From Owenia fusiformis (lineage: Eukaryota > Annelida > Polychaeta > Sabellida > Oweniidae), in NCBI GenBank assembly GCA_903813345.2, contig CAIIXF020000003.1, positions 17,000,931-17,064,930 of the forward strand: a stretch of 64,000 nt of DNA. Direction: 5' to 3'. The position numbers and the translations under genes were made by a program. Below the pieces are notes generated by a model, which worked only from the letters and a program-made list of their open reading frames with translations, had not been told where the DNA came from and did no database searches. Shown piece by piece: positions 6,131-62,488 of this stretch (its first letter is position 1; the number at the start of each line of letters is the position of its first letter).

Positions 6131-7539
6131 TGTCCCCACCAATGGGTGATCCCGTCAAATGATTATCCTGAAAATGAGTAGACAAGACTTTACCGTTACA
6201 ATTTTGGGACAGTAAATGCAAAATGGCCACCTTAAAATTTACCCAGAATGCCCAAAAATTAGTCAGCTTTAGATTTTCATACTGCGAACTAACCCTGAAA
6301 ATTTGAACTGTCAAACAGTACACCAGAAAACGCGTAAACAAGACTTCACAGACAAGATTTTAGGACTGAAAAATCCAAAATGGCTGCCTTGACATTAGCC
6401 CAGAATGCCAAAAAACTAATCAGTTCTAGATTTTCATACTAAGAATCATCCCTGAAAATTTGAAATTGATCTACCAAACGGTTCACCTGAAAACGCGTAG
6501 ACAAGACTTTACTGACAAGATTTTAGGACGGAAAATCCAAAATGGCTGCCTTGACATTTATCCAGAATGCCAAAAAAACTAATCAGTTCTAGATTTTAAT
6601 ACAAGGAATCATCCCTGAAAATTTGAATTTGATCTACCAAAAGGTTCACCTGAAAACACACAGACAAGACTTTACAGGCAAGATTTTAGGACGGAAAATC
6701 CAAAATGGCTGCTTTGACATTTACCCAGAATGCCAAAAAACTAATCAGATCTAGATTTTCATACTAAGAATCACCCCTAAAAATTTAAAATTGATCTACC
6801 AAATGGTTCACCAGAAAACGCTTAGACAAGACTTTACAGACAAGATTTTAGGACGGAAAATCCCAAATGGCTGCCTTCACATTTACCCAGAATGCCAAAA
6901 AACTAGTCAGATATAGATTTTCATACTAAGAATCATCCCTGAAAATTTGAAATTGATCTACCAAACGGTTCACCTGAAAACGCGTAGACAAGACTTTACA
7001 CACAAGATTTTAGAACGGAAAAATCCAAAATGGCCAATAATAAAAAAGTGATTATGAGTTTTTGCTGATTTCTTTTTACAACATTATCACATATCACTAC
7101 TGTTAACAATAACATAGGCTTCTAAAATAAAGTACACCTGGAATTATTTATAAAGCTACTAAATAGTTAAAGTATGAAAGCTCAAAAACACCGTTCAATA
7201 TGATACAAAGCATTATCGCGCGCTAACTTTTCTTAAGACATTCAAAATGGCTGCCACGACTGAGCTAACAGGTCCAAAACCTAATCAGATGTAGAATGAA
7301 GTAAGCTGAACAAGATGTTTAAAAGCAACCGTATAGCCGTTTTTCTTTGAGTTTGCAGACAAGGATTTTAGCATTTGACTTCAAAATGGCCGACAGGAAG
7401 TAGGTATCGAGCTAAAAGTGTTTCGTCCACATCTGTATCCACTCATAAGTTATCCCTGAAAATTTGAAGGTGATATCTGTAGCGGTTTTGGAGAAAACTG
7501 CCGGACGTACGTACGGACGGACGAACGGACGGACGGACG

Positions 7540-19670: not shown

Positions 19671-19820
19671 AACATGTACCTGGTGTATAGGTTCTGCGTC
19701 TATGTATCACCAGCATCTGGGACAGCGAATCGCCCTTTGCAAAATGTAAAGTCTAGTTCTAAACAATTTCAAAATGTTTTTCAGGTGGTGACCATTCAGA
19801 GAAAAAGTCGAGATAATAAA

Positions 19821-22004
19821 ATGTCTCATTCCCCTCTATCCACGGCACACAAAGATGCGCTCAGATCATGTCGCGTTCTCTTTGAGGACAGTCTTAACGT
19901 TGATGATATATTAGCACAATGCCTCCAAGACGATGTCATATCTATTAGAATGAAGGCCAGGATTGAGGCGAAACAAACTCCACATGAAAAATGTAGTGCT
20001 TTTCTTGATATTCTACAGACACGTGGAAGACAAGCGTTCGATGACTTTATTGTGGCTCTTAAAGTGGACTATGGGTTTCTTGCGCGTTCCCTTGAAAAAG
20101 AACTACGTATAAAAGCGTTATCACTTGTAAATGCTGGTCTTGTTTCCGCCAATGAGATAATTGTAGCTGATGAAAAATTGGATTATAAAGAAAGTGACAA
20201 AGCTAAAGCTTCAATAAGAACCATTCAGGCACTAATAACTCAACTCAAAACCACAGTTGGAATTCCAAAGTCAATAGCCCCACGAGTATCCAGGTCAAAT
20301 ACTACAGATGCATTTACATCTCCGTTGTCTGAAGCCCATAAAGCAACGCTCAGATCCCAACGCGTTTTGCTTCAGGAGAGTTTAGACGTGCAGCATATAT
20401 TACCTAGGTGTATCCAAGAGAGAGTATTATCCCAAGAAATGAAAGAAACAGTTTTAAGTCATTCGACCCGTCACCAGAGATGTAGTGCGTTTTTAGATAT
20501 TCTAGAAACACGTGGAAAACAAGACTTTGACAGTTTCGTATCCTCCCTTCATGACGACTACCTGTATTTGGAGCTTCCTATAAAAAGAGAGTTGCGTCTA
20601 CAGGCACTTAAACTTGCCACTGATGCTCTCGCAAACGCCAATGACATTTTCGATCGTGAAGTCCAATCTGATGAGCAACAATCAACCAAACTGGCGTTAG
20701 AGAGCATAGAAAGTCTTATATCCCAACTGAAAGTAACCATTGGCATCGAAGAGGAGTTTGTTGATTCTACAGCATCTGTTTCATCAGAACCATCCCCCAT
20801 GATGGTCACTTCCTCGGTATCTGTCAAATCCATTGTGTCCAAGATGTCCACTTTGGAAAGTCCATCAATGAATCTGACGCCGTCTCAAGTACCACACGCA
20901 GCAAGATCCTTGATCAGTGTAACAAAGCCGGAATCTTATATTGTCAAACAAACGCCTCTTAAGCCTACGCTCGATGTTCCTCTTACCCTCAATCAACCCC
21001 CCTTGTCCAGAGATCCACAAACACAGCCGTTAACGACAGAACCTCCTGATAATGTTAGAGCACAACTGCCACCTAGTAGTGATTCTCCCTCAGCCTCCCA
21101 GATCCCTCCTACAACAGGCCCGTCGTCGGTCGTTAAATCTCAACTCACACTGCAGCAACCTTCTACTAGTCATGAATCAACCCCCTCAACCAGTCTGGTA
21201 AAACAACTTAAAACACTTAATCTGTCGTCTGGTCATCTTAGTCTTACATTAACTCGTAAGATCGAGCTACCCGCTGAATGTTTCGGTCTTTGTAGTAGTC
21301 CTATGGGAGACATCATAGCATCAATATATCAGCATGGTATATTTGTGTACAACAAGGATTATACGTTCAAGTTAACGTTTGCATTAGAAGATCAATCTGA
21401 TGTAGTCTGTCTCCCCACTGACGAGATAGTGGTGTGTTCATGGAGGAATAACTGGGTGAAGGTGTTCGACATGGAGGGGAATTACAAGCGACAGATATGT
21501 AAATATGTTAATAAACCATATGGACTCGCATTCCACCCACAATTAGGTATTGTAGTTATTGGTAGGGACCCAATGTGTCTCAACATATGCTCTATCAGTG
21601 GTCAGGTACTCAGAACCATCACAAATGCATCATTCAATAATCTCTATAGAGTTGCCATCAGTCCATACAATAAAACATTGTTGGTGACTGACTACAAAAC
21701 CAGCACTCTTCACTGTCTGGACTGGGAGGGAAATAATGTATTTGCATACAAAGGTGATGGTGATGATGGACTTGATGAACCAGATGGTATTTGTTGCACT
21801 GATAAACATTTACTATTAGTGGACAGTTGTAACCACAGGGTGTTTTTATTATCTCATGATGGGGACCTGCTGAAGAATCTCCTCACTAAGGAGGATGGTC
21901 TGGAGTTCCCTCATGAGGTGATGGTAGATAGTAGTGGGAACATAGTAGTGGGAGAGAGCAGTTCAGGTCCCAATTATCTGTATGTGTTCAAAATAGATGA
22001 CTAG
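19821..22004 (+). CDS. Tandem CARD - linker - NHL beta-propeller protein (727 aa)
   Basis: A single long open frame. I prefer the ATG at 19821 because the conserved part begins there and a good acceptor (tttttcag) lies at about 19785. The in-frame ATG at 19674 would add 49 residues of no clear character. Residues ~8-95 and ~172-260 are two CARDs of the caspase-2/RAIDD style, with FLDILQTRGRQAFDDF and FLDILETRGKQDFDSF at the matching position. Each CARD is followed by a helical extension ending in KTTVGI or KVTIGI, so the whole ~140-residue unit is duplicated. Residues ~311-477 are Ser/Thr/Pro-rich and probably disordered. Residues ~478-727 form about six NHL-like blades (KPYGLAFHP, YRVAISP, DEPDGICC, FPHEVMVDSSGNIVV), as at the C-terminus of TRIM-NHL proteins. 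There is no RING, B-box, protease or NTPase motif. Likely a cytosolic adaptor that oligomerises through its CARDs and recognises a ligand with its propeller; the function is inferred. The CARD and NHL calls are strong. Confidence 0.88.
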   Translation: MSHSPLSTAHKDALRSCRVLFEDSLNVDDILAQCLQDDVISIRMKARIEAKQTPHEKCSAFLDILQTRGRQAFDDFIVALKVDYGFLARSLEKELRIKALSLVNAGLVSANEIIVADEKLDYKESDKAKASIRTIQALITQLKTTVGIPKSIAPRVSRSNTTDAFTSPLSEAHKATLRSQRVLLQESLDVQHILPRCIQERVLSQEMKETVLSHSTRHQRCSAFLDILETRGKQDFDSFVSSLHDDYLYLELPIKRELRLQALKLATDALANANDIFDREVQSDEQQSTKLALESIESLISQLKVTIGIEEEFVDSTASVSSEPSPMMVTSSVSVKSIVSKMSTLESPSMNLTPSQVPHAARSLISVTKPESYIVKQTPLKPTLDVPLTLNQPPLSRDPQTQPLTTEPPDNVRAQLPPSSDSPSASQIPPTTGPSSVVKSQLTLQQPSTSHESTPSTSLVKQLKTLNLSSGHLSLTLTRKIELPAECFGLCSSPMGDIIASIYQHGIFVYNKDYTFKLTFALEDQSDVVCLPTDEIVVCSWRNNWVKVFDMEGNYKRQICKYVNKPYGLAFHPQLGIVVIGRDPMCLNICSISGQVLRTITNASFNNLYRVAISPYNKTLLVTDYKTSTLHCLDWEGNNVFAYKGDGDDGLDEPDGICCTDKHLLLVDSCNHRVFLLSHDGDLLKNLLTKEDGLEFPHEVMVDSSGNIVVGESSSGPNYLYVFKIDD

Positions 22005-24786: not shown

Positions 24787-27700
24787 CTATATGATCATTA
24801 TCTCTTCTATTTCAGAGTTGTTTTTATTTTCCTCTGATGCATTGTCTGTTTTTGGTTTCTTCAATGTTGGAGTGTCCTCATTGCTGTCTGCTTTCCGTTT
24901 TCTATCAATAGATGGGGCTGGCGTGCTGTCGTCATCTTCAAGGACCATGAGATCATCTTCCTCGTCTTGTACTGAAAGATGCAATACAAACAATATCAAT
25001 ACACTCAAATGGATGATAATTTTGTATGTTTAATATAACTGTTGAACCCTCGAATCTTGATCTTTTGTCTATATTATTATGTTCCAATGCCCCAAGTCCA
25101 CTTAAATGTTATACAAAAGTGCTATGCTGACCTTTTTTTAAGGTAAAGTAAGATTAAAAGGAGCAATGGCTAGGAGCACATTGGAAATGCTTTGGAAGGA
25201 GAAACCATTCAATTAGCCAGAAGGATATTGCAAGAATTAAATACCAGATGACTGAGATTGCTTTTGTTCACTAGTTGCGGTACCATTGCCATTTTTGGTT
25301 TCAGTGTTTTCTTCCTGACTAGGCCCAGCTTTAGGCTGTAATTCATCCAAGTCACCTATTACTTCAAACTCTTTTTGGTCATCCAACTCTTCCCTAAAAA
25401 CAGAAAATTTTAAAATTCAAAATTATTAAAACAAGGTGTTCGCCATAGACCTACAAAAATGGGAGGAATCAGTTCATTTCATTTGTTAATGTTCCAAAGG
25501 AGTAGCTCATGCAGTATTGTATTTGTTAGAATGATCTCAAGTACTATTACTTATGAGGTATTGTGAACTAGAATTTTCCAAAATTACTAACTCATACAGT
25601 ATTATGTTAGAATGTTCTAAAGTATTTACTCATGTAGTACTGTTATGTTAAACTTTTCTCAAGTATTCATTTATGTGTGGTTGTATTATTAGCATTTTCT
25701 GAAATACTCACTTATACAGTATTATGTTAAAATGTTCTAAAGTATTTACTCGTGTAGTACTGTTATGTTAAACTTTTCTCAAGCATTTATTTATGCGTGG
25801 TTGTAGTATTAGCATTTTCTGAAATACTCACTCATACAGTATAATGTTAGAATGTTCTAAAGTATTTACTCATGTAGTACTATTATGTTAAACTTTTCTC
25901 AAGTATTTATGCGTGGTTGTAGTATTAGCATTTTCTGAAATACTCACTCATACAGTATTCTGTTAGAATGTTCTAAGTATTTACTCATGCAGTACTGTTA
26001 TGTTAAGCTTTTCTCAAGTATTTATGCACGGCTGTAGTATTAGCAATTTTTGAAATACTCACTCATGCAGTATTGTTATGTTGAGCTTGTACTCCTGTAG
26101 AAAGTCATCACACTTTAGCCTTGTGCCACTAATGATACCAAACGTGTTGAGAAATCTAGCCATGTTTTCTGCATCTGTAATGCAAAAAGAGAAAACTACT
26201 AGATTGTCTGCTCCCCATGACACCCCAGAGACAATATAACTGAACAGACATAACTTCTGGAATAGAAAACTCACTCAAATGAAGCCAACTGATTTTCTAT
26301 TTGAGTGCCTATATGCAATCAATTGCAAATATTATCATCTGGAAACGTCTCATATAATCCATAAGGCAAAACATTGAATTACAAATGTTGGATTGATAAA
26401 ATGCATTTAAACCTACCATCAGTTTCTCCCTCTTCACTGGATATGAGTATAGTCCCTTTGCCATCATCAATCTCAACATCTGGGGCCACCATGTTAAATT
26501 GGCCTTTGATTATCTAGAGGACAAAATGAATACTAACAACTAAAGAATCTGCTAATCAAAACTAAGACATTAAGAACACCAAGAATGATTAGTATTCATT
26601 CTCAAAATTCAACACAACTTATAATCATTTTACATTGAAGCAAATCAAAGATGTAGAATTATTTCAGTTTCCCACAGTGTTCCTAGTGTGACAGTGGCCA
26701 TAGTGTTTGGCTTGACAGTAACCTAATCAAGGTGATTTTAAGTACAGCAATGAATAGAATATTTCTACAAAATTCTGTTTAACTTTCTCCTTTAGCCATT
26801 CTATTTTGGAGCAAATCAATGAAGTTGAATTATTACCTTTTCCTCCAGTGTTTTGAGTGTGAGAGTGGTTGTGTTGACCTTGACAGTAACCTCAGGTTTG
26901 GCTGAGCACACATAACATTTCGGATTTGGCTTGTCCAGGAAACAGGGCACCAACAGTTTCTTGCGTACATTTGGTTGTCTATTGAGATATATCTAAATTA
27001 AAGGAAAATATAAAGATTTAAAGCTATTGGATATGTATGTGTTTTGTGAAGACAGTAGCAGAAACATTTTCGATAAGACTTCATAAACAGATCAAATATG
27101 TAATGTATATGTATGTTTTAACCATTGAAAAAAGAAAATATCATATACATGAACTTACAGTTTTACATGTTTCTATTGCACCAGATAAAATCTTCATGCC
27201 TTCCATCACAATGAGAGCAGCTATGACAGCATTGGTGGTTGCTATAGCAGGGATGATGTTACCTGCCATTGCTATAACAACAAAGGTAAACAATGAGGGA
27301 AGCTGTGATGGCATTGGTGGTTGCTATAGCAGTTGGATGATATCTACCATTGTAACAAAGATAAACATTCATTGCTATAACATAATCAGATAACAAACAA
27401 TCATTTTAAAGCTAAAAAGCTGATGTAGAAACATTTAAGAAAAAAATATCCATTCAAAGGTTCAATGTCACTGAAATTAGAGATGGGTGCATATTTCAAA
27501 CTTACATTTGATGTCAAATCGTGACTTGAGAGGAATGCCGAATATGTAAGCTCTAATGTTAGCTGCACATGTGACAAAGTCCATGGCTGGAGAATCATCC
27601 TGAAAGAATATTATGAGTGATTATTAAGTGATTTCTCAGTGTAGTATACAATACATACATTTCGTTTTTATTGTATTTGTATCTTGTGAATGTAAAATTG

Positions 27701-30700
27701 TTCAAATCTTAAAATTTTACTGTGGGTAAAGCCTCAGTCATATTTGCTTTACAGCAGGAATACGGCTGCCATAGCCACATACAAGGCATTAACATGACAA
27801 AATGTCACCACCTAAAACAATTTGGTCAATTTAAAGCAAGTTGGAAAATACCTTTTGACCTTAAGAAGGTTTTTGAAGATTTGAGCTTCTGGGATCTTGT
27901 AGATGATTTTGAAAAAAGAAATTGTTCAATCTGAAGCAAGTTAAAACTAGTTGCACACAAATCTTAAGTCAGATTTGAACTTCTCAGAACATGTAGATGA
28001 TTTTGAAAAAAAAATTCGTCAATTTGAAGCAAGTTGAAAAAATACCTCTTTGACTTTTTTTGACATTGAGAAGGTCATTGAAGGTCAAATGTCAAATGTA
28101 AAGTCAGATTTGAACTTCTGAGAACATGTAGATGATTTTGAAAAAAAAATTAAGTAAAGGACGATTCTCGGTTTGGAGAACGACGTTCATCAATCTAAAT
28201 GAGCATTATCCCTGCTTCGGACAAATTTGATTTTTTTCACATAATATAGATTTGAATGTCTTCTTTTGAATGGTCATAATTTAATTTGGGTAATATTTCT
28301 AGATTTTTCGCAAAAAAAATATTAGCGCAGTACACTATTGAACTTCTTTCCCCAAATCGAGACTTGAATTTTATTGAATCGGTCTAATTGAGCATTATCC
28401 CTGCTTCAGACAAATTTGTTATTTTTACATCTTGTAGATTTATGTGTTCTCTTTTGAATATTCAAAGTTTAATTTGGGTAATATTTCTATATTTTTCATG
28501 AAAAAAATTATTAGCCCAGGAGATTGTTCTCCAAACCGAGAATCGTCCTTTGAAGCAAGTTGAAAAAAGACCTTTTTGACCTTGAAAAGGTCATTGAAGG
28601 TCAAATGTCAAATCTAAAGTCAGATTTGAACTTCTGAAAACATGTAGATGATTTTGAAAAAAAATTAGTCAATTTGAAGCAAGTTGAAAAAAGACCTTTT
28701 TGACCTTGAGAAGGTCATTGAAGGTCAAAGGTCAAATCTAAAGTCAGATTTGAACTTCTGAGAACTTGTAAAGTCAAATTTGAACTTCTGAAAAGATGAA
28801 GATGATTTTGAAAAAAAAATTTGGTCAATTTGAAGCAAGTTGAAAACAGACTTTTTTGACCTTTTTTGACTTTGAGAAGGTCATTGAAGGTCAAATGTCA
28901 AATCTTAAGTCAAATCTTAAAGGTGCAACAAGTAGTGCAGAGGGGCCATTCAACGATCATGGACCAGTGTCAAAATATATTTAAGTTTGGATATTTCATC
29001 AAGACTAACATCTATTTTTATTTTCTACAAAGAAACCCCCTAGATCACATTATTTCAGCTTATATTCCTCTTGAAACATGGTGGATCTTAAAAATATAAA
29101 AGTGGACGTCCACTTTTTCAAGCTTTGAAGTGAATTTACACTCTTTAATGCCGAAATTGATAGTTTATCCATACATTTTAAGAAAATAGGTATGTCGAAG
29201 AAGATGTTAAGCCAACTGTTGCCTTGATAGCTCAGAAAAAGTTAAAATTTTCCTATTTTCTCTCTACAAGCCTTATTGCCCCTTTAAGTCAGATTTGAAT
29301 TTCTGAGAACATGAAGATGATTTTGAAAAAAAAAATTAGTCAATTTGAAGCAAGTTGAAAAAATACCTTTTTGACCTTGAGAAGGTCATTGAAGGTCAAA
29401 TGTCAAATCTAAGGTCAAATCTAAAGTCATATTTGAATTTCTGAGAACATGTAGATGATTTTGAAAAAAAAATTTAGTCAATTTGAAGCAAGTTGAAAAA
29501 AGACCCTTTTGACCTTTTTTGACTTTGAGAAGGTCATTGAAGGTCAAATGTCAAATCTTAAGTCAAATCTAAAGTCAGATTTGAATTTCTGAGAACATGT
29601 AGATGATTTTGAAAAATTTTTTTAGTCAATTTGAAGCAAGTTGAAAAAATACCTTTTTGACCTTTTTGACCTTGAGAAGGTCATTGAAGGTCAAATGTCA
29701 AATCTAAAGTCATATTTGAATTTCTGAGAACATGTAGATGATTTTGAAAAAAAAATTTAGTCAATTTGAAGCAAGATGAAAAAATACCTTTTTGACCTTT
29801 TTTGACATTGAGAAGGTCATTGAAGGTCAAATGTCAAATCTAAAGTCAGATTTGAATTTCTGAGAACATGTGGATGATTTTGAAAAAAAATTTTAGTCAA
29901 TTTGAAGCAAGTTGAAAACAGACCTTTTTGACCTTTTTTGACCTTGAGAAGGTCATTGGTCAAATGTCAAATCTTAAGTCAAATCTTAAGTCAGATTTGA
30001 ATTTCTGAGAACACGTAGATAATTTTGAAAAAAAAATTTAGTCAATTTGAAGCAAGTTGAAAACAGACCTTTTTGACCTTTTTTGACCTTGAGAAGGTCA
30101 TTGAAGGTCAAATGTCAAATCTTAAGTCAAATCTTAAGTCAGATTTGAATTTCTGAGAACACGTAGATGATTTTGAAAAAAAATTTAATCAATTTGAAGC
30201 AAGTTGAAAACAGACATTTTTGACCTTGAGAAGGTCATTGAAGGTCAAATGTCAAATCTTAAGTCAAATCTTAAGTCAGATTTGAATTTCTGAGAACACG
30301 TAGATGATTTTGAAAAAAAAATTTAGTCAATTTGAAGCAAGTTGAAAACAGACCTTTTTGACCTTTTTTGACCTTGAGAAGGTCATTGAAGGTCAAATGT
30401 CAAATCTAAAGTCAGATTTGAAGGTCAAATGTCAAATCTAAAGTCAGATTTGAATTTCTGAGAACATGTAGATGATTTTGAAAAAAAATTTAGTCAATGT
30501 GAAGCAAGTTGAAAAAAGACCTTTTTGACCTTGAGAAGGTCATTGAAGGTCAAATGTCAAATCTAAAGTCAGATTTGAACTTCTGAGAACATGTAGATGA
30601 TTTCAGTCAATATGGTACAACGAAAATGGGACTTCTGCGCATGTTAAAATTTTTCGTCAAAACTCAACTTTTGTTCAAGTTGATACGATTGTCTTTCGAA

Positions 30701-44400: not shown

Positions 44401-47400
44401 CATGTAGACATATTTCTAGTCGGTTTTAAGTGATCAACCGGCAGAAAGTAAGTTATACATGACTATAATGAGAAAAAATGAATAATAGGGCAAAATGATT
44501 TTACATGCAGTTAATAGGTTATTGAAGCGTCAATGCTCTTGTGAAAATTGTAGTTGCATGCAGTGGAGTTTTACATTAATCCGATTGGAGCTTTTTGATA
44601 AATTTGATAAAGATTAATTGAACATTTTTATTCATGTTTCTGTCATTTTAGGCCCAGGACTCTCTAAAGCATGAAAAGCATCTTTGGTTGACTGCACATA
44701 TTCTGCATCTAGAGTTGCAGGAGTTGGTATTGGACAATGAATTGAAGAGTCTTGAGATAGCCCCCAGCTCTTCTCAAGCACAGGTACTTTGATTGCACCT
44801 ACTGAATGATATCCGTGATCTTCTCTGCATTGGAGCAATAATGAACTCTGCTATTGAGATTTTTGGATTAGGCACCAATGGTATATTCCCCTAGCACCCC
44901 AGGTTCTTGAGAAAACACCTCACAAGAATCCCAAGTGGCTGATAATGCCTTCAGCAAAGCCACTACAAGTGTACAATGTTTATGTATTGTATATGTATTT
45001 GTAAAATAAATTCTATGAATAAAAAAATAATTGTTGAAAGATGAACAGGTATTCACCTCCATAGAATGATATAGGCCTACATGTTGTAAAGTATCAAAAT
45101 AAATGTGTCAATTTGTCATTTTTCCATGAAACTCTCTTTTAGAGAAATGAATATTGAGTTGAAGAGGTGATAATGGACTAATAAGAATTGGCTGACATTT
45201 ACATTATAAAGATATTGTACATGAATGTGGGGTCGGACCCTCTCATATAAGTTTGGCGGAATAAAATATTGATAATCCAGTGTTCTCCCCATAAAAAATT
45301 TTCAACTGGTGCAATTTTTCAAGTCTGAAAAATTGGCGCTCGCAACTCTTGTGATATCTCCAGGTGCCTCTTTACGTCACTCATTTTTCAAATCAGAAGT
45401 TGAAGTGGAGGGTACCAACTGGGGAGCCTTTGGTTTCAAGAAGGATCCCCCCTCCCCCGGTAAAAGAGACATGGGGAGATCACTGTAACCCAACCCAGTC
45501 CCTAATTGAACATACTTCATTTAAGATATTTTCTTTTATTTCAGTATGAAAAGGCTGTAAAGCAAAATCTGTCACTGAATGAAGTTGCTGACTATATTGA
45601 CTGTGATGTGGACCCATGTAGAGGGGCAGCATTATTGGGCCTCACTAAGCAAGAAGTCTTAAGAAATAACCCCCACAGGAAGGTAAGTTTTTATGATAAA
45701 TGACCCTTTTAAAAACACCTTCCACGGTTAGACCACCACTCTGGTTCAAGTTTCTCCACTCAGTTTAGATTATCACCACCGTCATAATTTCTGACGATGA
45801 AGTGATTGTATTGTCTTTTCTCTAGGAAAATCTGAAACAGGCCTCTGAACAGGCCTCTGAACCAATTATTCATCCTCCAATCACAGGGCTTCAAAATACT
45901 TCTTTCTTTTTACCCCCTGTGATAAGCAGTTAGCATTTCCCCGATTAAGAACTCGCAATTTGATTCGCGACACAGCAATCATGTATACGTCATCGGCGCA
46001 TAATTAGATCACGTGATTCAGTTTTATCGGGCACTTCCAAATTGGTTTTAGCAGGGGGAAGGAAGGAGGTACGGATTCTAGACACCTGCTTAGGAGGATG
46101 CCAGTTACATGTATTTAGAATAATGTTATTGCTGTAAAAATTTTAAAATGAATGCTGTTTTTGTGTCATTCAGAATATGAAGGGTATACAGCAGAAACTG
46201 ATTCCCCAGCTAGAAGAGAGATTGCGGCAGAAATGCGACAACTTGGTGACTTTCCATCAAACATCGACAACTCAAGGTAAAATATTGTGCATTAAGATTC
46301 TATATTTTATATTGCGAAATCATCATAAATTCTCATAAATGTTACATCACATGAATAATATTGATTTATTGGTCTATAATGGTCTAATGGGGCATGTGTG
46401 GTAAGTATAGACCAGCAAATGTATGATGATTTATGGCATACATGTACTTTTTATTAGAATCATAACAAAGGCTTCTATGATTAATGATTATGACAAATTG
46501 CCAAATACTTCCTCAATAGCTGGATGATTTTTTCAGTCTCTTAACCATGAGAAGAGAAGAGAAGCTGAGGTTTAGAATGTATGTCATAAAGATTGAGTTC
46601 AAATTTTCCAGGATGTTTTAATGTATCTAAAACAAACTAGAGTTTACTTTTCTCAGAACTTTATTATTACTACAGTATTTAATCCTCCAGTTTCTATCTT
46701 TTAAACATACCAGTCTACCACTTGATCATTTTTGAAACAATATGTATGAAGTTTTATAATAAGAACATTCAGGCTCGTAGCCATGATCTGCCAAAGGAGT
46801 TCACTTTTTGAAAAATTCCAAAGTGGTTCACATTTGACAAATTTTGCCCAAAAATGGCCAAAATCACTCAAAAAGTGCTCAGAATGGTGAAAAACTGCAT
46901 GATTTTGAGAGAATTTTTGGCCCCCCCTGTCTATTGGCCTGACATTGATACCAGTAACCTGTTCATGCTATAGTAGGAGTACATTTGATACCAGTTCATG
47001 CAATAGTTTATACAGTTCAAATAGATAGTATCATTTTAATATTTGCAGTTCACATAATGTAATAATAACAGCTGATTGCTTCTTAAGAAACAATTTCCTT
47101 TCCATTTTCATTCTGAATTTTCCATTTTTGTTTAAGATGGGATTTCTGAAGAGAAAGTTTCACAAATTCCTGTATATTCCTTGGCTGGGATGTTACTATC
47201 GAGTCCCCACTTCTACTGTCTGTTGCTATTGCATCATCTAAGACAGTCTCAATTCCCGTAACACGAACTATAAATGATCGGTAATCATTTATATGGATCC
47301 CAATATCGATTGTGTCACTGTTTTCTACGATAAGGCCGAAAGGATGGAAGAAAGGGTAGCGAATGAAGTTATTTCGAACGATTGGAATGTTGTTGTAGAG

Positions 47401-50400
47401 GTCCGGGTGGATTCTCAAACGCTCGCTCACATAAACGATTCTGAATGGGTAAGCTTTGAGTAGTACAATGTGCGCACCATAGAGGGGGCTAGTGGAATTT
47501 TGGTTATCCTTGTATGATAATGTCGATAGGGCCACATTGATGTAATACGACTTCTTATAGGGCAAGAAAGATGAACCACCATGCAGAAAATCTGTATTTT
47601 GATTGAATGGATATTTTTCTAGCGTTGTATCGATAGACTTGATGAAGTGGCAAGTTATATCCATGTTTTGTTCTTTCGTACATTTGAGAACTCTCAGTGG
47701 ATCCATCGTGTAAACAAAATGAAGTGTATCGTCAACCACCAGGGGCACCCAATTTGAATCAATCTGAGCAATATTGTGATCCAAAATTTTTGGTTTCTTC
47801 AAAATCTTACGATCATAATCCAATAAAAATAGATGTCCGATATTTAGACCCTTATTGTCTCTCATTGTCATGTAAAAGAGAACCATGAGTGATCCCATCC
47901 AGTTGAAAATTTTTGGGTCAGAGCAGCCAGCATTTGCCACATATTGAACTGGTACAGGGATACCAAGTATTTCACCTGGAGATGTAGGTTTCATATTACC
48001 ATCAAACATTTGCGAAAACAGATAATTATCAATCCATCGATTTATCTGATCTGCCTTATCCAATTTATAACGACGTTCATAGTTCAACCAGACTCTCGCC
48101 ACAACCATAATATTGCCTTTATATGGCAATATAGCTGGACTTATAACATAGAACTCAAGTTGATGGTTAGTTCCATTTCCATCGATAAACAGGTTTTCGA
48201 CTCGGTTTTCAATGTCCGGGGAGAATTCATGCAATAGTGATGATTCCATTGGCTCACTTTTATAATGTAATTGGTTGTTACCAAGAATCAAAGACATCAT
48301 TTGAAACCTGTATTTGTAGCGTTTGCCTGCTTCGATGTTGTTACCATCTACTTCGATGAAGTGTCCTTTTTTGGTGTCGTGATTTCTGTCTGCCTCAGTT
48401 TCTACCACTTGTAAAATGTTCCCATTACGCTTGACTTCAACTTTTGTTTTATCCATGGATGCCAACTTTGAAATGTTAAGGTATATAAGGTAAAGCAACA
48501 GGATGGTACATCCTACTGAAATATATCTTCTAGTTCTTGCTCTTGCCATCATTCGAGGCTTTTGTTAGTCTAGACCTATGATACAAGTAAGTACATGATA
48601 CAGTATGTATGTTTGGCTCCAGTTCAGAACTGAGTTGTGAACTCATATTAAACTAACACTTTTATGCCCAGCTATTTTTAGTGTTGAGTGTACAGGTAAA
48701 AGTCATTCAGGTGTGAATCAAGTAAACAGGTAAAGGCATTGTATCCAACTGTGTATGTGCTTTGTTATTGGTCATACCACAGTCAATCGCTGCAGTGGTC
48801 TCAGTACAGTTAACTTGATTAAGGTAGTTCCACATGCATGAAACAGTTGATATTTTGTGCATTTTTAATGTAGATATTTACAGATTATGCAGACTTGCCA
48901 ACCTCCTTTTTTTACAGGAATCTCCAGTAAAATTTTTGTTTTTCCGTAAAAAATAACAAAACTCAATACGCGATAACGTTTAGTTTTAGTTCAGTTTAGT
49001 TACCTCCTGTTTGAAGAGCTCTCATGTATGGTACAACTTCGTCTACATCCGGGTTCTTTCCCATTGGATTACACAGGGGTGCTATTTTCAATGCCTGTTA
49101 AAACTCCAGTTTTTTTAAAAACTTCGATTTTTTCAAAAATCTCCCGCAAAAACTACCACTTTTTAGAGAATTGACCACCAAACTATGCTTTTTTTTAGAA
49201 AAAAAACTGGAGATAATCTGCCTTTTTAATTAAAAAAATTGTCCCCAAAAACCGTAAAAACTCCTCTTTTTTCATAATCTATCGCAGAAACTCCAGTTTT
49301 TCAAAATCTACCGTACTACTGTTTTCCTAAATTATTCTCAATTTTTGTCAATGTGTAGAACTACATGTACGTTAGTATTATACACTGGTAAAACAAGACC
49401 CCATGCACTTTTATTAAAGTTAACCAAAAAACAATAAAAGTTGTAAAAGTGATAGCAATGATAAAGCATAGAATCAGCAGATAATAGGGAAAATATTTAT
49501 GATAGAAATAGTGATAAAAACAATCAATATACTCAAACCCAGGTCTGAAGAAATTGGATAATAGCAATTAATATTAAAAGTTATAATATTGACAATAGGT
49601 ATAATAGTGATAATATTGACAATAGCAATAATAGTGATAATATTGATAATAGCAATAATAGTGATACTAGCAATAATGATGATAATATTGATAGTAGTGA
49701 TAATATTGACAATAGCAATAATAGTGATAATATTGATAATAGCAATAATAGTGATACTAGCAATAATGATGATAATATTGATAGTAGTGATAATATTGAC
49801 AATAGCAATAATAGTGATAATATTGATAATAGCAATAATAGTGATACTAGCAATAATGATGATAATATTGATAGTAGTGATAATATTTACAATAGCAATA
49901 ATAGTGATAATAGCAATAATGGTGATAATATTGATAATAGCAATAATAGTGATAATATTGAAAAAGGCAAGAATAGTGATAATATTGATAATAGCAATAA
50001 TAGTGATCATATTGATAATACTTGACTGCATCAGTGGTTTTAGTTCAGTTTACTTTGTTGTCAATGGTATTATGCCAAATAATTCAGCTAATAGCTGAAA
50101 TATATCCATGACCTTAAGATGGTACTCACAGGGGCTGTACCAATTGCTTGTTCCTGCTAAATGCATGGGGCACTTTTTAGTATTTGAAATGGAAAAAAAA
50201 ACAATTTTCATTGTTGTACAAAATGAAGTCCAGTTCCTACACAATTTTATATTGACATATCCTACATTTATTGGGACAGATACTGTACTTCTACTTAATT
50301 TGGCAGATCCGCCAAATTGTTAAAGTCCACCAAATTAGCAACTGCCAAATTCAATATGTCATATTTCAATCGTAAATATGTATATAATACATTTCAATAT

Positions 50401-62415: not shown

Positions 62416-62488
62416 GCCCGGCTAGCTCAGTCGGTAGAGCATGGGACTCTTAATCCCAGGGTCGTGGGTTCGAGCCCCACGTTGGGCG
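62416..62488 (+). tRNA. tRNA-Lys (anticodon CTT)
   Basis: A complete 73-nt cloverleaf. Acceptor arms are GCCCGGC and GTTGGGC plus discriminator G. The D-arm/A-box is TAGCTCAGTCGGTAGAGC, the anticodon loop CTCTTAA has CTT at 62449-62451, and the T-arm/B-box is GTGGGTTCGAGCCCCAC. No intron. A T-run about 15 nt downstream can serve as the Pol III terminator. Strong match to the eukaryotic tRNA-Lys(CUU) pattern. Confidence 0.96.

Follow-up and report, generated by a model that had tools for sequence, protein, structure and literature searches.

The Owenia fusiformis gene described here encodes a protein of 727 amino acids made of tandem CARDs, a linker and a TRIM-type NHL domain, without a RING or an NTPase, an architecture that is confirmed at the level of sequence. 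All positions refer to the window, that is, the whole stretch of 64,000 nt that was analyzed (contig CAIIXF020000003.1, forward strand). The open frame runs from 19674 to 22004 (+), and from its ATG the coding exon (19821 to 22004, + strand) comprises 727 stop-free codons (19821 to 22001) plus the stop. Besides the frame itself, the tandem paralogues and the low dN/dS of the first CARD (see below) mark this exon as a gene.

Architecture of the coding exon

A Pfam scan of the complete protein returned PF00619 (CARD, E 6e-26) over two stretches and PF01436 (NHL, E 2.2e-7). Scored singly in the genome search, CARD1 (19854 to 20099, converted from genome coordinates) reached 50.4 bits (E 9.1e-11) and CARD2 (20343 to 20570) 52.4 bits (E 2.1e-11), against a curated cutoff of 23.9, and the single NHL repeat that Pfam recognized (residues 651 to 675, 21771 to 21845) scored 31.0 bits against a cutoff of 20. 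The sequence-only reading of this locus had placed two CARDs and an NHL domain in one intact frame and had named such a profile search beforehand as the test that could overturn it; both CARDs and the NHL domain were found above the cutoffs, in a frame that is intact. The duplication of the CARDs together with their helical tails, also part of that reading, was recovered as repeat unit 1 (residues 1 to 159, 19821 to 20297), seen in the structure model as well, and repeat unit 2 (residues 165 to 316, 20313 to 20768), whose limits we set from paralogue and self alignments; residues 1 to 159 and 159 to 318 are 43% identical, tails included. The predicted Ser/Thr/Pro-rich linker was borne out too (residues 313 to 469, 20757 to 21227; 46% S+T+P), and the rest of the protein is the NHL beta-propeller (residues 470 to 727, 21228 to 22001). 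All these features lie on the + strand.

Structure models were built from one or two sequences each. The model of unit 1, in which unit 2 served as the second of two rows, had a mean pLDDT of 62.5 and showed CARD-like helices followed by long tail helices, the helices of the six-helix death fold being present in the predicted model of this unit. Most of the 50 Foldseek rows obtained with it were CARDs, including those of Nod1 (best E, 0.067), Apaf-1, CARD8 and NLRC4, with target TM values reaching 0.82; also among the rows were a few BAR domains and one designed protein. VIA-align gave a Z of 11.6 to CARD8 across 83 residues, a value that the designed protein equaled, and since it lies where helical bundles need care, the identity of the CARDs rests on the profile match.

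For the propeller, the best one-stretch match over the domain in a phmmer search of solved structures with the single protein was the NHL domain of TRIM2 (E 1.3e-13). A profile of six close copies matched TRIM2 at an E of about 1e-24 over profile positions 25 to 253 in one stretch, and its alignment was likewise uninterrupted across the complete NHL domain in the solved structures of TRIM2 and TRIM3. Ranked by summed score, both the single protein and the profile had as their first row 2ymu, a WD-40 protein of highly repetitive sequence whose match was spread over several stretches. The propeller model (mean pLDDT, 54.2) had clear strands only at about model residues 73 to 225, with both ends poor. 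Foldseek placed Brat, TRIM71 and Thin first (best E, 2.5e-8, Brat-NHL), with WD40 and YWTD propellers scoring nearly as well, and the structure matches do not separate these from NHL. As regards a closed six-bladed fold, the observations are the one-stretch alignment to the TRIM2 and TRIM3 NHL domains and a low-pLDDT model with strands in its middle part. The models are of low confidence and would not suffice by themselves; what they show is consistent with the profile matches.

No RING, B-box, NACHT, NB-ARC or helicase model, nor any other effector domain, was among the seven Pfam rows of the protein at E values of up to 10, and no RING or B-box pattern occurred in the six frames of the whole window, in line with the earlier claim that the protein has neither a RING nor an NTPase. 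When the N-termini of seven fetched TRIM loci were searched against the window, they gave chance-level matches only (best E, 0.084), which, together with the absence of patterns, led us to reject a split TRIM gene with a hidden upstream RING/B-box exon. The nearest B-box match on contig C3 was about 0.9 Mb away among the 150 listed (150 of 285 candidates were scored). A pseudogene or a chance frame was ruled out by the intact 727-codon frame, by CARD dN/dS values far below 1 where computable and by tandem copies of the same layout. TRAF-binding motifs, searched as patterns, were not found in the linker; the only NCBIfam match, to the propeller, was weak and fell far short of the cutoff, and PADLOC gave no match to the protein. 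Elsewhere in the window are large tandem-repeat arrays (6167 to 7034, 25569 to 26074 and 29284 to 30603), a tRNA-Lys (62416 to 62488) and a 489-residue frame (47083 to 48552, - strand) with a weak beta-mannosyltransferase match below the Pfam cutoff.

Upstream of the ATG, a CAG after a T-rich stretch (19782 to 19784, +) is a probable 3' splice site at a distance of 36 nt, with a second CAG at a distance of 21 nt. A YAG within 60 nt upstream with at least 8 pyrimidines in the preceding 15 positions was present in 14 of the 15 family members examined, compared with 1642 of 3000 random upstream stretches; with at least 10 pyrimidines, the counts were 8 of 15 and 723 of 3000, and a plain YAG within 60 nt is frequent by chance (2415 of 3000 random stretches). 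The spacing between acceptor-like site and ATG is not constant modulo 3 across the family, which makes a coding upstream exon with a conserved junction unlikely, so that this exon is probably noncoding. Judged by these sequence signals, the gene probably has a single coding exon behind a 5' untranslated region (5'UTR) intron, and the stretch between the acceptor-like CAG and the ATG (19785 to 19820, +) would be the putative 5'UTR part of that exon. The single intact exon of the first reading therefore stands for the coding part and is refined by a likely separate upstream 5'UTR exon.

The CARD-NHL family and its TRIM background

The genome search, in which locus counts are lower bounds, revealed at least 16 CARD loci of the focal type in the same genome (the focal gene, L001 to L013, L015 and L016). 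CARD matches were found in all 16 and NHL matches in 15, that is, in 12 of the 14 frames of alignment A1 and in the separate frames of L006, L007 and L008. The locus with no NHL match, L015, is cut short and was counted in the family by its alignment to other members. Two CARDs occur in four of the 16 loci (the focal gene, L001, L002 and L007). A stop codon separates the CARD and NHL parts of L007, the propeller of L006 is split over two frames, and L008 has its CARD and NHL in two neighboring frames. Adjoining L013, a second partial NHL frame (L013:469-852, - strand) nearly repeats the end of the L013 propeller.

A tandem trio, its copies spaced about 25 kb apart (C3:16,970,466, 16,995,107 and 17,020,751), consists of the focal gene together with L001 and L002, which are 75% and 74% identical to the focal protein, respectively. 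The linker is shortened in L002 and almost missing in the single-CARD copies L003 to L005. Divergence between the focal gene and L001 is mosaic: dS is high in tail 1 (1.25) and CARD2 (1.41) and lower in CARD1 (0.29), tail 2 (0.15) and the linker (0.12), a patchwork that suggests gene conversion between the tandem copies. No relatives of the focal protein were found among viral contigs, and the propeller of a close paralogue retrieved from a collection of genome contigs a single 24%-identical bacterial stretch (L035).

Propeller trees were built with 14 CARD-NHL propellers (L006 and L015, with a split or missing propeller, were left out) and with 15 further NHL loci, or 13 when L036 and L048 were removed. 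Group I, composed of the focal gene and L001 to L005, was sister to L014 (support, 100/99). About 3 kb upstream of the L014 NHL frame and on the same strand, there is a frame (L051:785-1309) that resembles TRIM RING/B-box regions; each of the five TRIM N-termini used as queries matched it (best E, 1.4e-14), and from its position we infer that it and the NHL frame belong to one gene. A single clade of all 14 CARD-NHL propellers was rejected (p 1.8e-5, and p 3.9e-4 without L036 and L048). Because group I is sister to L014 and the single clade is rejected, the unrooted tree implies that the N-terminal module changed at least twice, either by two CARD gains or by one gain and one reversal. Along similar lines, we examined the 20 CARDs of the CARD-NHL genes, for which a single clade was not rejected (p 0.41) in a short, weakly resolved alignment; of the 18 other CARD loci fetched, those not belonging to the CARD-NHL genes, this tree included 14 and omitted the partial frames of L028, L031, L033 and L034.

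The TRIM background in this genome is large, with at least 150 B-box matches (150 of 285 candidates scored). Pfam, applied to four NHL loci, recognized a RING and a B-box in L037 and L047 and neither in L036 and L048; the remaining NHL loci were judged by eye, and the frame of L043 starts after the RING region.

Differences among copies and proposed function

The codon ratios place the CARDs under purifying selection wherever they can be computed. In CARD1, dN/dS was 0.17 between the focal gene and L001, the other two pairs of the trio being saturated at synonymous sites, while CARD2 gave 0.14, 0.28 and 0.15 for the three pairs. In the whole propeller, the ratio was 1.2 between the focal gene and L002 (dN 0.103, dS 0.086) and 0.59 and 0.58 in the other two pairs. 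To locate the differences, strands were taken from the predictor's DSSP and not from the variation, and model residues 73 to 225 were scored; following the usual naming of propeller loops, B-C and D-A were considered top loops and A-B and C-D bottom loops, labels that depend on the propeller model with its mean pLDDT of 54.2. Among the sites so labeled as top loop are residues 541 to 542, 562 to 567, 583 to 585, 625 to 628, 653 to 655 and 669 to 670.

In the trio, 17 of 38 sites in top loops were variable, compared with 2 of 28 in bottom loops and 11 of 87 in strands (Fisher 2.6e-5), and none of 152 circular shifts of the labels reached this excess. Six of the eight sites at which all three copies differ were in top loops. 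These p-values are post hoc, since the idea of a variable top face arose from the trio alignment, where the differences seemed to lie close to the blade ends. Among seven sets, two of which overlap, top loops varied more than bottom loops at p <0.05 in four, including three of the four TRIM-type sets (L041/L043/L050, L038/L039/L040/L045 and L037/L046). The excess was not significant in L003/L005 (Fisher 0.087; 26 of 152 shifts), L003/L004/L005 and L042/L049/L044.

Selection was evaluated in six groups with our own fixed-sites codon model, which gives the top loops a separate omega. For the trio, omega was 1.41 in the top loops and 0.80 in the rest. The top-loop value exceeded neither 1 (p 0.52) nor that of the rest (p 0.42) significantly, because the top has a raised synonymous rate as well (rate ratio, 2.64). 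In none of the six groups was omega significantly above 1. It was significantly higher at the top than in the rest in three groups, all of them TRIM type; for the four TRIM-type sets, top omega values were 1.18, 1.13, 1.84 and 0.69, with p values against the rest of 0.25, 0.018, 0.036 and 0.012, respectively. In L003/L005/L004, the top omega was 0.27, significantly below 1. The model-based geography of the differences has support from the trio and from some of the TRIM-type sets, with no significant positive selection, and the tight turns of the bottom face may simply be more constrained. In the available parts of a study of human TRIM NHL domains, the blade-connecting loops and the top opening are described as a diverse putative binding site, and some of the loop changes as possibly serving structure (PMC9634614); LIN41 binds RNA on the upper face of its propeller, according to the accessible portion of PMC5908797.

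Our preferred reading, to which we give an even chance, is that of an intracellular sensor-adaptor in which the top of the propeller would bind a variable ligand and the CARDs would nucleate signaling. The top face, which differs from copy to copy, would bind a ligand, the likeliest being a microbial protein or peptide or a host molecule that has been modified. Binding would gather several molecules or free their CARDs, which would then stack, and by analogy with CARD biology the stacked CARDs would recruit CARD-bearing effectors through CARD-CARD contact. Candidate effectors in the genome include the partial CARD match of L034, with a caspase match some 0.7 kb behind it, and CARD frames beside SH2-tyrosine kinase frames; the caspase is a possible partner of the focal protein. 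The variable top face of the trio would fit an innate immune sensor. The sequence-only reading had likewise cast the propeller as ligand sensor and the CARDs as assembly platform, a view that gains indirectly from the top-face variation of the trio and from purifying selection on the CARDs, but the top omega is not significantly above 1, L003/L005 lack the pattern, and the pattern was seen before it was tested. More tentatively, and with the balance somewhat against it, NHL propellers may act here as a diversifying recognition scaffold. A large TRIM-NHL repertoire and a smaller CARD-NHL one would share the propeller, its top face varying like the ligand site of a receptor, and the output module (ubiquitin ligase or CARD signaling) would have been exchanged at least twice, giving NTPase-free CARD sensors.

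The absence of an effector domain among the Pfam rows would also suit a negative regulator, that is, a CARD decoy capping the CARD filaments of caspases or adaptors, with the propeller as an anchor to a scaffold or substrate. Caspases are present in the genome, one with a CARD match nearby, and the structure matches include ICEBERG and ARC, whose entry titles label them as inhibitors, alongside many CARDs of the activating kind. However, a decoy would need neither two CARDs in a row nor several copies whose propeller tops differ, and we regard this role as unlikely. Another reading takes the protein as a housekeeping scaffold of cell death or development under ordinary constraint, in which the variable top would reflect relaxed constraint after duplication instead of recognition. 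It would accommodate the trio top-loop omega, the patchy divergence between tandem copies, which complicates any reading of selection, and the lack of a significant top-face excess in L003/L005, but top loops exceed bottom loops in more than half of the sets, most of these TRIM type, and the copy number is high for a core scaffold; we hold this reading to be improbable too. Least probable, and in our view quite doubtful, is an RNA regulator whose propeller binds RNA like those of Brat and LIN41/TRIM71 while the CARDs drive condensates or filaments on mRNA: Brat and TRIM71, which lead the structure matches of the propeller, are NHL domains that bind RNA, but the trio propellers are acidic (net charge, -10, -10 and -5), with 0 to 3 K+R against 7 to 10 D+E in their top loops, which, by these overall counts, are unlike the basic pocket of LIN41 in the accessible portion of PMC5908797. 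This argument from acidity is limited to the trio, because L003 to L005 are near neutral (-1, -4 and +2).

Related systems and other CARD loci

In the usual description, an animal CARD sensor combines a CARD with a motor (NTPase or helicase) and a sensor part, and NHL domains are best known for RNA regulation in development. With the TRIM-NHL proteins (TRIM2, TRIM3, TRIM71, Brat and Thin), the focal protein shares the C-terminal NHL domain, alignable in one stretch to TRIM2 and TRIM3, and the nearest propeller outside group I belongs to a locus with a TRIM-like RING/B-box exon (L014), but tandem CARDs take the place of the RING and B-box. RIG-I, MDA5 and NOD2 have two N-terminal CARDs in tandem, as the focal protein does, which in contrast lacks a helicase, a NACHT and LRRs and gives each CARD its own helical tail. 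Fish TRIMs are multigene TRIM-type sensors and resemble this family in their varying C-terminal domain, which is there a B30.2 accompanied by a retained RING. NLRs and Apaf-1 also combine an N-terminal CARD with a C-terminal repeat domain, consisting of WD40 repeats in Apaf-1 as stated in the available text of PMC2246300, but place a NACHT or NB-ARC between them, absent here. In lophotrochozoan RLRs, N-terminal domains, death-fold ones included, have been swapped ahead of a conserved sensor part, a similar grafting of N-termini, although that sensor is the RLR helicase with its C-terminal domain (PMC8998645, in the portion available).

No description of a CARD-NHL protein was found in titles and abstracts among the matches listed in a full-text search of literature open without subscription, which covered papers and not protein databases, and the terms CARD-NHL and NHL-CARD did not occur in the full texts searched. 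Within the available text of PMC2575513 and PMC2246300, the word NHL had zero occurrences. The combination may be recorded elsewhere. A CARD placed directly on a TRIM-type propeller would amount to a motor-free design of CARD sensor. If the top face is a variable ligand site, NHL would join LRR and B30.2 among the recognition scaffolds of antibody-less animals, and the question of the ligand would be directly testable with single small domains.

CARDs were also found in other contexts in this genome. In L017, L019 and L020, an SH2-tyrosine kinase frame comes after a CARD frame of like orientation, an arrangement that suggests CARD-SH2-kinase genes. CARD frames lie beside or are joined to ankyrin-like repeats, identified by eye, in L025, L028, L030 and L031, and L029 has a CARD-LRR frame. 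Finally, a single frame of L023 (L023:2042-3238, + strand) combines a CARD (E 4.4e-15) and a Ras-type small GTPase (E 1.5e-35) with a stretch that looks helical.
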